Notes under the pieces: generated by a model | Seen by the model: only the letters and a program-made list of their open reading frames with translations | Database searches by the model: none | What the model was told of the DNA's origin: nothing | Translations under genes and position numbers: made by a program | Assembly (NCBI GenBank): GCA_001004905.1 | Contig: LCRY01000002.1 | Span: forward strand, 343,054 to 378,128 | Length of the DNA stretch: 35,075 nt | Direction: 5' to 3' | Source of the DNA: Parcubacteria group bacterium GW2011_GWA1_56_13 | GTDB lineage: Bacteria > Patescibacteriota > Minisyncoccia > Phycocordibacterales > Phycocordibacteraceae | In this document: piece by piece, positions 7,329 through 11,663 of the stretch | How the letters are laid out: every line of letters begins with the position of its first letter | Position numbering within the stretch: position 1 is the stretch's first letter

Positions 7329-7356
7329 TTGACAAGTACGTAGTTTTGTGTACCAT
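7329..7356 (+). promoter_or_regulatory. Sigma70-like promoter for the SPFH operon
   Basis: TTGACA (7329-7334), 16-nt spacer, TACCAT (7351-7356), two bases after the tRNA-Lys gene. Confidence 0.5.
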
Positions 7357-7413
7357 ATACGCCAGAAGTCTGGCTCGATTCCGAGCTGGATACGTACATT
7401 CCAGGAGAAACCA

Positions 7414-8466
7414 ATGCTCCGAATATTCGTGGAAAAATTCGTGGATAAGGAACACAAACTGATCAGGTGGAAGACCCTCTTCGTATGGGGGCCGATTCAA
7501 GCCCTCCTCGGTTTTTTCCTGTTCTACTTCATCGCTTCATTCGCCTTCGAGTTCCTGAACGGGAGCTTGGGTGCGAAGTACTTCGTCCATAACAGCATCA
7601 CGGTTGGGGCGACATTCTTTCTTGCTTTCGCCTACTTCTATCTTCTGGCGCTTGCGAAGGTAAAAGAAGCATATGTTGGCCAACCAACGCTTCTCGGCGC
7701 TCGGCGAAATGAATTCGTTCTACCGGAAGGCTATTCTCTTATCTTGCCGTGGCCATTCATGGGTTACAGCGAGATTCCGGTTCAGCCAACCACAACCGAG
7801 CTTAAGGAGCCGATGGAAATCCTGGTGTCGAAGCAACCGGAAAAAGACAATGACGGCACTCAACCCACGCCGCCGGTCCAACCGAATCCAAACGAGCCGC
7901 CAGCTTATCAGGTGCGGATGAAAATCTCCATGTCAATTCTATGGGAGGTTGAGCCCGAAAACATCCTGAGCTACACGGCTGTCGATGGAGGAAGGGCCGG
8001 TGTTGAAAAAGCTCTGGTGGAAGTTATGCGGCGCAGCATTCGCGAAAGGGCGCAACATCTCTCTGACACGCAGGTCTTTACCGGCCAGGAGGTCTTTGCG
8101 ACAGAGGTTCAGAAAGCGCTTGAAGAAGACCTCGATAAGAACAAGCCTGGGATGAGTCTTGTAAAACGCCTCGGTATTAAAATCATCAAGGTACAGACCG
8201 TGAAGATCGTTCCGTCGGATGAGGAATTGACGAAACGGTATGAACGGCTTCGTAGCGAAGACCTCGACAAGCAGGCCGAAACGAACCAGGCAAACCATCT
8301 CGCGGACAACCTGGTGGACAAATTCAAGTCGAAGGGAGTCTCCGCTGACATGGCGTTCCTAGGTGCGCTCGCGATGACGAAGGACGCGAAACTTGTGGGG
8401 GTCGTTGGCAACGCCGGCGATTTCACGAAGGGACAAGTGGCAGCTGGTGAAGGAGGTGGGCGATGA
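7414..8466 (+). CDS. SPFH/band-7 (stomatin/prohibitin-like) membrane protein
   Basis: Two hydrophobic N-terminal segments, then KISMSILWEVEPENILSYTAVDGGRAGVEKALVEVMRRSIRERAQ... and GIKIIKVQTVKIVPSDEELTKRYERLRSEDLDKQAE. AGGAG Shine-Dalgarno before ATG 7414. Confidence 0.7.
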   Translation: MLRIFVEKFVDKEHKLIRWKTLFVWGPIQALLGFFLFYFIASFAFEFLNGSLGAKYFVHNSITVGATFFLAFAYFYLLALAKVKEAYVGQPTLLGARRNEFVLPEGYSLILPWPFMGYSEIPVQPTTTELKEPMEILVSKQPEKDNDGTQPTPPVQPNPNEPPAYQVRMKISMSILWEVEPENILSYTAVDGGRAGVEKALVEVMRRSIRERAQHLSDTQVFTGQEVFATEVQKALEEDLDKNKPGMSLVKRLGIKIIKVQTVKIVPSDEELTKRYERLRSEDLDKQAETNQANHLADNLVDKFKSKGVSADMAFLGALAMTKDAKLVGVVGNAGDFTKGQVAAGEGGGR

Positions 8467-8891
8467 CGTTCTACCAAAATATCGGGACCCCCGTTCGGTC
8501 ATCGGCAAAGTATCTTCTTGTCTTAGGGGTGGTCCTGCTCCTTGTCGGAATGGGGTACAGCGCGTATCTCTATAACAAAGCACGTGCTCCATCCACGCCT
8601 TCGCAGAACAGTGGCGTGCGGCCGGAAATCCCGCTTGCAGGCAGTCCGCGAGCTTCAGGAACGCTGGTCATACCGGCAGGCGGAAAGTCGGATCTTATCC
8701 CGCCTCTAGAAGGCAAGTATCCCGAGTTCACGGGGTTCGGCAAGTTCCTGACGCACAACGTGCGTCTGGACGGGACCGAGTGTGCGTTTGGGGAGGCGGG
8801 TTGCGTGAATGGCCCGCGTCTCAAGGGCTATTACATAAGCAACGAATCGGGCGCGACGATCACCGTTACGTTCGAATTCAAGCCCGGGTGA
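8463..8891 (+). CDS. Small single-TM hypothetical protein coupled to the SPFH gene
   Basis: 142 aa, ATGA overlap with the upstream stop, N-terminal TM (YLLVLGVVLLLVGMGYSAYLY), extracytoplasmic tail with two Cys. Confidence 0.7.
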   Translation: MTFYQNIGTPVRSSAKYLLVLGVVLLLVGMGYSAYLYNKARAPSTPSQNSGVRPEIPLAGSPRASGTLVIPAGGKSDLIPPLEGKYPEFTGFGKFLTHNVRLDGTECAFGEAGCVNGPRLKGYYISNESGATITVTFEFKPG

Positions 8892-8955: not shown

Positions 8956-9240
8956 CTACTGCGATATCTTTGTGACCGGCTTGACGTTTGGATTATCCGG
9001 GAAAACGGCTTTAAGCGCGAAATTAATGATGCCATACGCGCCGAACATGATGACGAGCCCGATAAGTCCCCACAGAATGGCCCGTTTCCCTTCCGTGCGC
9101 TTCGTTTCGTCCGCCGCATGCGCGATGAACTCAAACACGCCCCAAATGAAAAGAACGAACGCCGCACCCGCGAGGAGCAGGATAATCGGATTAACGATCT
9201 CGACGACGACCTTTCCGAGGAATTGGTCGAGAACAACCAT
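8956..9240 (-). CDS. T4SS pilin/VirB2-like two-TM small protein (array member 1)
   Basis: IVNPIILLLAGAAFVLFIWGVFEFI...RAILWGLIGLVIMFGAYGIINFALK; same two-TM core as neighbouring ORFs. Confidence 0.7.
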   Translation of the reverse strand: MVVLDQFLGKVVVEIVNPIILLLAGAAFVLFIWGVFEFIAHAADETKRTEGKRAILWGLIGLVIMFGAYGIINFALKAVFPDNPNVKPVTKISQ

Positions 9241-9603
9241 TTACCTGACCTGAACGCCTGACGTCGGGACGCCGCCGGTAGGACCCGATGTATTGCCGAA
9301 GCTCACCGTGCCGGTGAGGATGTTCACGAGACCCCAGATGGAGACCATCACGAAGAAGCCGATGAGACCCCAAAGCATGAGATTCTTTCCTTTCTCTCTC
9401 ACCTCTTCGGAATTTGCTCCGAAAATAAAGGTGTAAAACGCGCCCCAGAGGAACACGATGAAGGCGATGGCGAAGAGCACGGGGACGAGCACGTTGTTTA
9501 TGATGTTGATGATGAAAGAGCCGGCGTCCGCAACGTTGTTGATCGCGGCAAACGAAACGAGCGGCAGGGCGAATGCGGCAAGGAGGGCGAATGCTTTTTT
9601 CAT
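9241..9603 (-). CDS. T4SS pilin/VirB2-like two-TM small protein (array member 2), signal peptide
   Basis: MKKAFALLAAFALPLVSFAAINN...IINNVLVPVLFAIAFIVFLWGAFYTFIFG...GKNLMLWGLIGFFVMVSIWGLVNIL. Stop codon abuts the ATG of member 1. Confidence 0.75.
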   Translation of the reverse strand: MKKAFALLAAFALPLVSFAAINNVADAGSFIINIINNVLVPVLFAIAFIVFLWGAFYTFIFGANSEEVREKGKNLMLWGLIGFFVMVSIWGLVNILTGTVSFGNTSGPTGGVPTSGVQVR

Positions 9604-9629
9604 AATATTGGTAAGCGGATAACAAAGTA

Positions 9630-9657
9630 ATTGTAACGTTCCTCCTGGCGCGGTCAA
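9630..9657 (-). promoter_or_regulatory. Promoter for pilin-like members 2 and 1
   Basis: Reverse strand TTGACC-16 nt-TACAAT, about 20 nt upstream of the ATG region. Confidence 0.5.
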
Positions 9658-9729
9658 GGCGCTCCTGCGCGCCGTGTGGATAGTCCGCCGAGACGCTTCT
9701 GGGCTTGGGAGCGCGAGCGTATGGGTCTC

Positions 9730-10104
9730 TTACAATCTCGGCGGAGTCGGCGGAGCCGCCATGATGGACAGGCCGAAGGTCGTCATCACTATGTATACGA
9801 GCGCCCACACGGACAGGATGACAACAAAGCCGATAATGCCCCACAGCGTGAATTGCCGCCCCGTCGCGCGCTCGGCCTCATCATCGGCGCCGAGGATGAA
9901 ATACTTGTATACGCCGTAGAGGAACACGATGAAGGCGACCGCGATGAGTACGGGAACGAGCAGGCTGTTAATGACGCCGACGATGCTCTGTGAATACCCC
10001 TGGAGATACGTCGGGTTGATGCCGGTCTGGGCAGACGCAATGAGCGGAAATCCGGAGGAAGCGACAACGACGAGAACTGTAGCGAGATGAGAGAATTTGC
10101 TCAT
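9730..10104 (-). CDS. T4SS pilin/VirB2-like two-TM small protein (array member 3), signal peptide
   Basis: MSKFSHLATVLVVVASSGFPLIASAQTGINPTY...INSLLVPVLIAVAFIVFLYGVYKYFILGADDEAERATGRQFTLWGIIGFVVILSVWALVYIV. Confidence 0.75.
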   Translation of the reverse strand: MSKFSHLATVLVVVASSGFPLIASAQTGINPTYLQGYSQSIVGVINSLLVPVLIAVAFIVFLYGVYKYFILGADDEAERATGRQFTLWGIIGFVVILSVWALVYIVMTTFGLSIMAAPPTPPRL

Positions 10105-10565
10105 TGTATTCTGTACGATTGCGGCGGCGGCGGCGCATAGGAGCCGGCAAGGCCGAAGGTGTTCGCGACGACATTCACGAGGCCCCAGAGCGATATCATG
10201 ACCACGAAGGCGATGAGACCCCACAGCAGGATTTTGTGCCCCTCATCCACCTTCCCCGGGTCGCCTTGCGAGAAAATATACTTCAACACGATGCCGTAGA
10301 GGAACACGATGAAGGCGATGGCGAAGAGCACCGGCACGAGCACGTTATTAATGATGTAGAGGATGGTGGATGCGACCTGGCAGATATTGCTCGCCCCGCA
10401 CATAAAAGGACCTCCGCTTCCAAAACTTATGGAGAAATTCCTGTTGGAGAACTGGAAATTGCCGCTTGAATCGGAATAGATGGATGTTTGGGCAAGGGCG
10501 AGCGACGGCGCCAAGAGTACTGCCGAAGCGGCCAAGACGGTGACGAAACGAGTCATTGATTTCAT
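10101..10565 (-). CDS. T4SS pilin/VirB2-like two-TM small protein (array member 4), signal peptide
   Basis: MKSMTRFVTVLAASAVLLAPSLALAQTS...IINNVLVPVLFAIAFIVFLYGIVLKYIFSQGDPGKVDEGHKILLWGLIAFVVMISLWGLVNVV; ATGA overlap with member 3. Confidence 0.75.
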   Translation of the reverse strand: MKSMTRFVTVLAASAVLLAPSLALAQTSIYSDSSGNFQFSNRNFSISFGSGGPFMCGASNICQVASTILYIINNVLVPVLFAIAFIVFLYGIVLKYIFSQGDPGKVDEGHKILLWGLIAFVVMISLWGLVNVVANTFGLAGSYAPPPPQSYRIQ

Positions 10566-10585
10566 ATGCGGTTCAGTATGACACA

Positions 10586-10864
10586 TCACCTAGCGGGCGC
10601 GATGCCGAGCGTGGATAACAGCAAATTCACGAGGCCCCACACCGAAAGGAGCACTACCATGCCGAGAATGCCCCAGCCGATGAATTGACGTCCTTCCGAG
10701 CGCTTCGCCTCATCCCCTCCGTGAAGGAAGAAGTAGTTTATGACCCCCCAGATGAAGACAACGAACGCGAGCGCGAAGATAAGCGGCACGATGACGGTAT
10801 TGATGACGCCGATGACGCCGGTGGAGCCGCTGCCGACGAATTGAGCGAAGGTCATACCCGTCAC
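10586..10864 (-). CDS. T4SS pilin/VirB2-like two-TM small protein (array member 5)
   Basis: INTVIVPLIFALAFVVFIWGVINYFFLHGGDEAKRSEGRQFIGWGILGMVVLLSVWGLVNLLL. GTG start overlaps the GIY-YIG stop (GTGA); internal ATG at 10855 is an alternative. Confidence 0.7.
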   Translation of the reverse strand: MTGMTFAQFVGSGSTGVIGVINTVIVPLIFALAFVVFIWGVINYFFLHGGDEAKRSEGRQFIGWGILGMVVLLSVWGLVNLLLSTLGIAPAR

Positions 10865-11127
10865 ACTAAACGGCCTCGCAGGCTGTACTGCAAGCGACGT
10901 TTAAGCGCCGCTCGCGCTCCTTGGGAGGCCTTCAGGCGAAACTCTCTTCCTTTTGCATCGGTTTGCGACATGTACGCTTCGTAGTATATCAGTTGAAATG
11001 GCAGGCGGGATCGTGTTGACCGTGCAGTTCCCATAGAATGCCCAGCGAGACGGCGTCGTAAGTCAGTTGTGAATCCAGTGTAGAGTCGGTTGTCTTTCTT
11101 ACTGTGTAGAAGATATACGTAATACAT
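10861..11127 (-). CDS. GIY-YIG domain nuclease (UPF0213/YhbQ-type)
   Basis: MYYVYLLHSKKDNRLYTGFTTDLRRRLAGHSMGTARSTRSRLPFQLIYYEAYMSQTDAKGREFRLK. Confidence 0.85.
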   Translation of the reverse strand: MYYVYLLHSKKDNRLYTGFTTDLRRRLAGHSMGTARSTRSRLPFQLIYYEAYMSQTDAKGREFRLKASQGARAALKRRLQYSLRGRLV

Positions 11128-11165
11128 GGTCGTCTCGCAAGGCCGTTTTAGTGTGTCGGGTCATA

Positions 11166-11663
11166 TTACTGGCCGACCGAAAGCGCTTGCACCGTCGCTT
11201 TGATGCCGATGGCTATCGCCTGCGAACCAAGGAGAATGAGCGCTCCGACAACGGTCCATAGGAGGGCGGCTCGCGCCTCGGTTATCTTTGACTCGTTCCC
11301 CCGAGCCGCTACAAAAAGGTAACCGACGTACACCATCATCAAAATGACGACAATGGTGCCGATACGTATGACGAACGCCAGGATATTCAAGAGGAAGCTC
11401 TCTAGATTCCCTCCTCCTTGGAGCGGGTTGAGGAGCGAAGTGTAGGTGACGGGCTGTGAGAGACCGGTTTGGGTGGTGGGGCTCGTGAGGCCTTGTTGGA
11501 TATTAGTGCGCGGATCTATGGCACTGCACGTTCCATCGCTCAACCGCGGTCCGGTGACTATCTGTCCGTTAACCGTCGTCACGCAGTCGGTATCGGCATG
11601 TACAAAAAACGGCGCGCCGAATGATGCGACGAGCGCGAAGGAAACGATGATGGAGAAACGCAT
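11166..11663 (-). CDS. T4SS pilin/VirB2-like two-TM protein (array member 6, divergent), signal peptide
   Basis: MRFSIIVSFALVASFGAPFFVHADTDC...LESFLLNILAFVIRIGTIVVILMMVYVGYLFVAARGNESKITEARAALLWTVVGALILLGSQAIAIGIKATV. Confidence 0.7.
   Translation of the reverse strand: MRFSIIVSFALVASFGAPFFVHADTDCVTTVNGQIVTGPRLSDGTCSAIDPRTNIQQGLTSPTTQTGLSQPVTYTSLLNPLQGGGNLESFLLNILAFVIRIGTIVVILMMVYVGYLFVAARGNESKITEARAALLWTVVGALILLGSQAIAIGIKATVQALSVGQ

Follow-up and report, generated by a model that had tools for sequence, protein, structure and literature searches.

A T4SS-family pilin gene array headed by an orphan solute-binding protein gene in a Parcubacteria genome

To what machinery do six small two-helix membrane proteins encoded together in this genome belong, and why does their operon begin with a solute-binding protein (SBP)? 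The six genes span 8956-11663 on the minus strand of the window, the 35,075-nt stretch of DNA analysed here, and each encodes a first transmembrane helix (TM1), a charged loop and a second helix (TM2), the layout described in a first-pass annotation along with an LWGLIGFVVM-type core motif that we find in p2 and p4. That annotation called the genes consecutive; we find that a GIY-YIG gene separates p6 from the other five (p5-p1). It also overlooked the SBP gene, which lies 2 nt upstream of p6 and opens the conserved operon of the array.

8956..9240, minus strand: p1, short T4SS_pilin-family protein of 94 aa, without signal peptide; PF18895, 35.0 bits
9241..9603, minus strand: p2, T4SS_pilin of 120 aa, Sec signal peptide, helical hairpin; PF18895, 37.3 bits
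9730..10104, minus strand: p3, T4SS_pilin of 124 aa, signal peptide ending ASA-Q; PF18895, 35.0 bits
10101..10565, minus strand: p4, T4SS_pilin of 154 aa, signal peptide ending ALA-Q; PF18895, 36.5 bits
10586..10855, minus strand: p5, T4SS_pilin of 89 aa from the conserved ATG, without signal peptide; PF18895, 37.9 bits
10861..11127, minus strand: GIY-YIG endonuclease gene, not a pilin; PF01541, E=7.5e-14
11166..11663, minus strand: p6, TrbC/VirB2-like pilin of 165 aa, signal peptide, divergent orthologue group; PF18895, 21.5 bits
11666..12967, minus strand: SBP, 433 aa, N-terminal TM anchor (H5-27); PF13416, 74 bits
13011..13589, minus strand: class I methyltransferase (MTase), in the synteny gyrA-MTase-SBP-array; assigned by reading the sequence

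The gene coupling noted earlier holds at two junctions, with p4 and p3 overlapping by ATGA and p2 and p1 abutting; the GTGA overlap proposed for p5 is probably not its true start, the conserved start in sequence comparison being the ATG at 10855 (MTFAQFVG), which begins 5 nt past the GIY-YIG stop. The N-terminus of p1 is conserved as M-x-V-L-x-x-F-L, and p1 occupies the last array position in all complete arrays of the genus. At the other end, the MTase is a conserved upstream neighbour of the SBP whose operon membership is uncertain. Promoter sites do not exceed the number in shuffled sequences (one consensus match lies upstream of p2, at 9657-9630 on the minus strand), and terminator-like sites outnumber those in shuffles yet sit inside genes, so neither scan is used here; a search of Rfam gave no match and one of PHROGs no informative match. 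Two plus-strand genes at 7348-8891 converge on the 3' end of the array, one encoding an SPFH/Band_7 protein and the other a 142-aa membrane-anchored protein that is recognised at this position in only some relatives.

Pilin family membership, signal peptides and fold

Profile searches with curated Pfam cut-offs uphold the earlier assignment of the array to the T4SS-pilin/VirB2-like family. All of p1-p5 exceed the PF18895 (T4SS_pilin) cut-off of 26.6 bits, scoring 35.0-37.9; p6 itself falls under it, and six tested p6 orthologues pass (26.8-41.6 bits). For PF04956 (TrbC/VirB2, cut-off 27.9 bits), p6 scores 20.7, p2 16.2 and p1 12.0 and the other members give no match; the cut-off is passed by two p6 orthologues, at 28.0 and 31.2 bits. 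The nearest NCBIfam model is NF045849, the Mbov_0395-family pilin-like conjugal transfer protein, whose cut-off is reached by p3 alone (40.4 vs 40). Five members over the PF18895 cut-off, together with recurrence of the array beside gyrA in relatives, make it more than a chance grouping.

Signal peptides had been included in the layout of the members; by inspection they are present in p2, p3, p4 and p6 and absent from p1 and p5, and nearly all of the p1 and p5 orthologues inspected likewise have none. The AlphaFold2 model of p2 is a helical hairpin (helices 24-61 and 66-103, pLDDT 81), and two predicted helices joined by a short charged loop fit a VirB2-type pilin, a feature that is not specific to such proteins. 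A Foldseek search with the single-chain p2 model returns no significant match (best E=0.64), so the fold alone is no proof of a VirB2 pilin; an alignment profile of p2 weakly matches the pKM101 TraM pilin, 8cw4 (E=0.066).

Just left of the window, the protein at L016:6062-7039 (G000:C2:341061-342038) starts with a pilin-like region of two TM helices (PF18895 E=0.0075), to which a VanY-like D-Ala-D-Ala carboxypeptidase domain is fused; that domain scores 22.1 bits, below its cut-off.

Age of the paralogues and the GIY-YIG gene

Nearly all relatives carry the array in the same place beside gyrA; neither placement in unrelated families nor loss of conservation, the outcomes named beforehand as telling against a pilin array, is what we observe. 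Arrays were gathered from 23 loci of the same genus and 16 of the same order; most genomes of the genus share one gene order, SBP-p6-p5-p4-p3-p2-p1. In a tree of 134 array members, the nearest neighbour carries the same position label in 125, an agreement that is partly circular because labels were assigned from best BLAST matches, and for which gene order is independent support; the nearest neighbour lies within the same genome for only 4 of the 134. Orthologues of p6 form a clade of their own (24/24, support 1.0). On these sequence comparisons we regard the array members as old, position-specific paralogues, each an orthologous lineage. Recent tandem duplication of array members, suggested earlier from near-identical TM1 DNA, is ruled out by the tree and the gene order.

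The near-identity itself is confirmed, with exact TM1 matches of 34 nt between p2 and p4 and 26 nt between p4 and p3, and gene conversion, the other explanation offered at the time, fits it. Between p2 and p4, identical codons are used at 26 of 40 identical residues, vs 17 expected from codon usage. With the comparison run on core regions only, exact tracts of at least 24 nt are seen in 8 of 205 pairs within a genome vs 5 of 2315 between-genome pairs with different labels, and one relative (L054) has a within-genome tract of 56 nt. This pattern supports occasional short-tract gene conversion acting on old paralogues.

The same tracts speak for a rival view, in which the paralogues are major pilins able to replace one another, diversifying and recombining to meet different hosts, as is proposed for the VirB2 copies of Bartonella Trw; for Patescibacteria VirB2 arrays, host-range or antigenic variation is put forward in PMC12102498. 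Against this stand a gene order that does not vary and orthology that follows array position across the genus, along with the position-specific presence or absence of signal peptides, which point to specialised subunits; we therefore judge variation of this kind quite unlikely. Position-specific paralogy argues for a built hetero-assembly, not a set of interchangeable variants. In Bartonella Trw, tandem, sequence-variable VirB2 paralogues likewise occur in a T4SS (PMC12857230). The array resembles the Trw VirB2/VirB5 copies in its tandem VirB2 paralogues and differs in that its paralogues appear old and position-specific, no VirB5 is identified and the T4SS is of monoderm type.

The GIY-YIG gene has no counterpart in relatives' arrays, being found in 0 of 80 named gyrA loci and in none of 40 array loci, and from this distribution we read it as an insertion specific to this lineage. 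The genome encodes four more strong GIY-YIG genes, one of them at the right window edge (from ~34930), and the stand-alone gene in the array may be a mobile or homing-type gene.

T4SS genes elsewhere in the genome

The first-pass annotation, seeing no VirB4/VirD4-type gene, had suggested that the proteins might form a heteropolymeric pilus or a membrane channel in place of a classic T4SS. The genome is 704 kb in 7 contigs and is rated 100% complete, and the best named matches of its gyrA are Ca. Kaiserbacteria/Paceibacterota records. Its T4SS genes were located by family searches and in selected stretches. We find VirB4 (E=4.7e-26) at C1:24635-25546 and PrgI (E=2.5e-9), both beside dnaA, where a split VirB4-N/TrsD-like protein and one further T4SS pilin also adjoin; a second VirB4 and PrgI lie on the 6.9-kb contig C6 with a VirB6-sized membrane protein, the TrsD-like and VirB6-like calls being made by position and size only, with no Pfam match. 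A T4CP-like ATPase is encoded as well. These genes rule out the absence of a T4SS from the genome, and the heteropolymeric pilus or channel remains the best idea, no longer as an alternative to a T4SS. The stretch L013:4861-15389 (G000:C1) places the VirB4, PrgI, TrsD-like and pilin genes beside apparent dnaA, dnaN and yidC.

Among 59 relatives, 53 encode VirB4, away from the array, and 57 encode T4SS pilins; G031 and G036, each a single contig, have hundreds of kb between virB4 and the array. With the array so far from virB4, its pairing with the VirB4 T4SS is made by family and co-occurrence. Since the genome does encode T4SS genes, we most likely have here the distal set of VirB2-type pilins of a chromosomal Patescibacteria T4SS, and we put the probability that the array belongs to a VirB4-driven pilus or channel at roughly 70%.

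The available text of Quinonero-Coronel et al. 2025 (PMC12102498) describes Patescibacteria VirB2 arrays of 2-11 divergent genes of the same Pfam family, either contiguous or interrupted by a single non-pilin gene, with a distal T4CP and with VirB4, TrsD and PrgI near dnaA, and by this likeness our array is an instance of an already published kind. Relative to the arrays covered in that text, it differs in lying far from virB4, in belonging to a Kaiserbacteria-type Paceibacteria genome and in being preceded by an SBP. The six VirB2-like pilins of Ca. Southlakia epibionticum are essential according to a review (PMC12857230), and in Paceibacteria on methanogens the highly expressed secreted proteins include T4SS pilins (PMC10936435). 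The locus bears on how Patescibacteria contact and feed on hosts, their T4SS being essential in the one tested strain.

The solute-binding protein at the head of the operon

The SBP belongs to the SBP_bac_8 family (PF13416), of maltose-binding type, and carries an N-terminal membrane helix. Its AlphaFold2 model (mean pLDDT 95) matches oligosaccharide-binding proteins in Foldseek (E ~1e-21), and the closest protein by sequence is CpMnBP1, 4r9f. It shares fold and family with the SBPs of carbohydrate ABC transporters, such as CpMnBP1 and maltose-binding protein, and differs from them in being TM-anchored, in sharing an operon with pilins and in having no detected BPD_transp_1 permease (PF00528): none is found in this genome, rated complete, by a search whose controls are positive in 14 of 14, and the cognate permease of an SBP-dependent ABC importer is accordingly lacking from what we detect here. 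No BPD_transp_1 permease is found in 36 of the 59 relatives either, most of which keep the SBP, and single-permease PF00528 genes occur in the other 23.

The link to the pilins is persistent. The SBP is present in 53/59 relatives, nearly always as a single copy, and stands with at least two pilins in 49 of the 54 gyrA loci that have more than 6 kb of downstream DNA. Relatives with the SBP have at least five pilins in 51 of 53 cases, and the six relatives lacking it have 0-3 (Fisher P=6e-7), a co-loss to which missing contigs in incomplete bins can contribute. Over the phylum, 147 of 192 genomes hold a relative in a search with the SBP profile; among 40 loci sampled from these matches, in genomes listed as outside this class, 25 have at least two same-strand pilin genes directly behind the SBP, usually starting within 60 nt, and in the other 15 no pilins are recognised behind the SBP relative and, as judged by hydrophobicity, no permease pair adjoins it.

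One could hold the operon link to be incidental, the SBP and pilins being merely co-transcribed surface proteins and the SBP serving some other transporter; the single permeases of some relatives and the SBP relatives with no adjoining pilins are what such a view would lead one to expect. The 2-nt spacing of SBP and p6, the close spacing of linked loci outside the class, the persistence of the linkage, and the retention of the SBP in genomes with no detected permease, this one included, make it improbable.

The best reading of the locus is a conjugation-type pilus or channel built of several pilins, with the orphan SBP as a surface receptor or tip, a function that we infer from family and gene neighbourhood. 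Patescibacteria would use their chromosomal T4SS in epibiotic life, with the array supplying pilins. The signal-peptide pilins (p2, p3, p4 and p6) and the signal-less p1 and p5 would insert as hairpins in an N-out/C-out orientation that leaves the charged loop inside, and VirB4 with VirB3/VirB6-like proteins would extract these to build a single hetero-polymeric pilus or envelope channel with a fixed place or dose for each paralogue. The membrane-anchored SBP, proposed as an accessory because it has no detectable ABC permease of its own, would act as a receptor or a tip or base protein on the host-facing surface. We hold only tentatively, and at low confidence, that the SBP is a true component of the pilus or channel and handles a ligand. 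Equally speculative, and rather doubtful at present, is the broader idea that it was co-opted throughout the phylum as a fixed part of a hetero-pilin T4SS, whether as receptor, tip or gate, such that host oligosaccharide-like ligands would be sensed or imported via a conjugation-derived pilus or channel and not an ABC transporter.

A pilus-free channel or scaffold, in which the hairpins form a hetero-oligomeric pore in a single membrane and the SBP delivers its ligand for ABC-independent uptake, would suit the signal-less members and the phylum-wide position of the orphan SBP immediately before small two-TM proteins, and is the least probable reading, as the members belong to a T4SS pilin family, VirB4 co-occurs, and we know of no precedent for VirB2 proteins as a solute channel.

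For the hetero-pilin T4SS with its accessory SBP, the part not found in the open-access literature searched is the operon link between the array and an orphan SBP: our search there found no link between an SBP and pilins or a T4SS in Patescibacteria, Parcubacteria or CPR, and subscription papers may note one. A conserved orphan SBP in a pilin operon offers a concrete, testable handle through its ligand, its location and its knockout.

Several of the 15 pilin-free loci seem to hold a different SBP group adjoining VanW-like or GroES/GroEL genes. Six loci (L209, L211, L213, L214, L216 and L217) encode a second Patescibacteria SBP group, whose members have N-termini that are long and rich in proline and no adjacent permease; their gene surroundings are conserved, with VanW-like and nucleotidyltransferase genes and sometimes GroES/GroEL.
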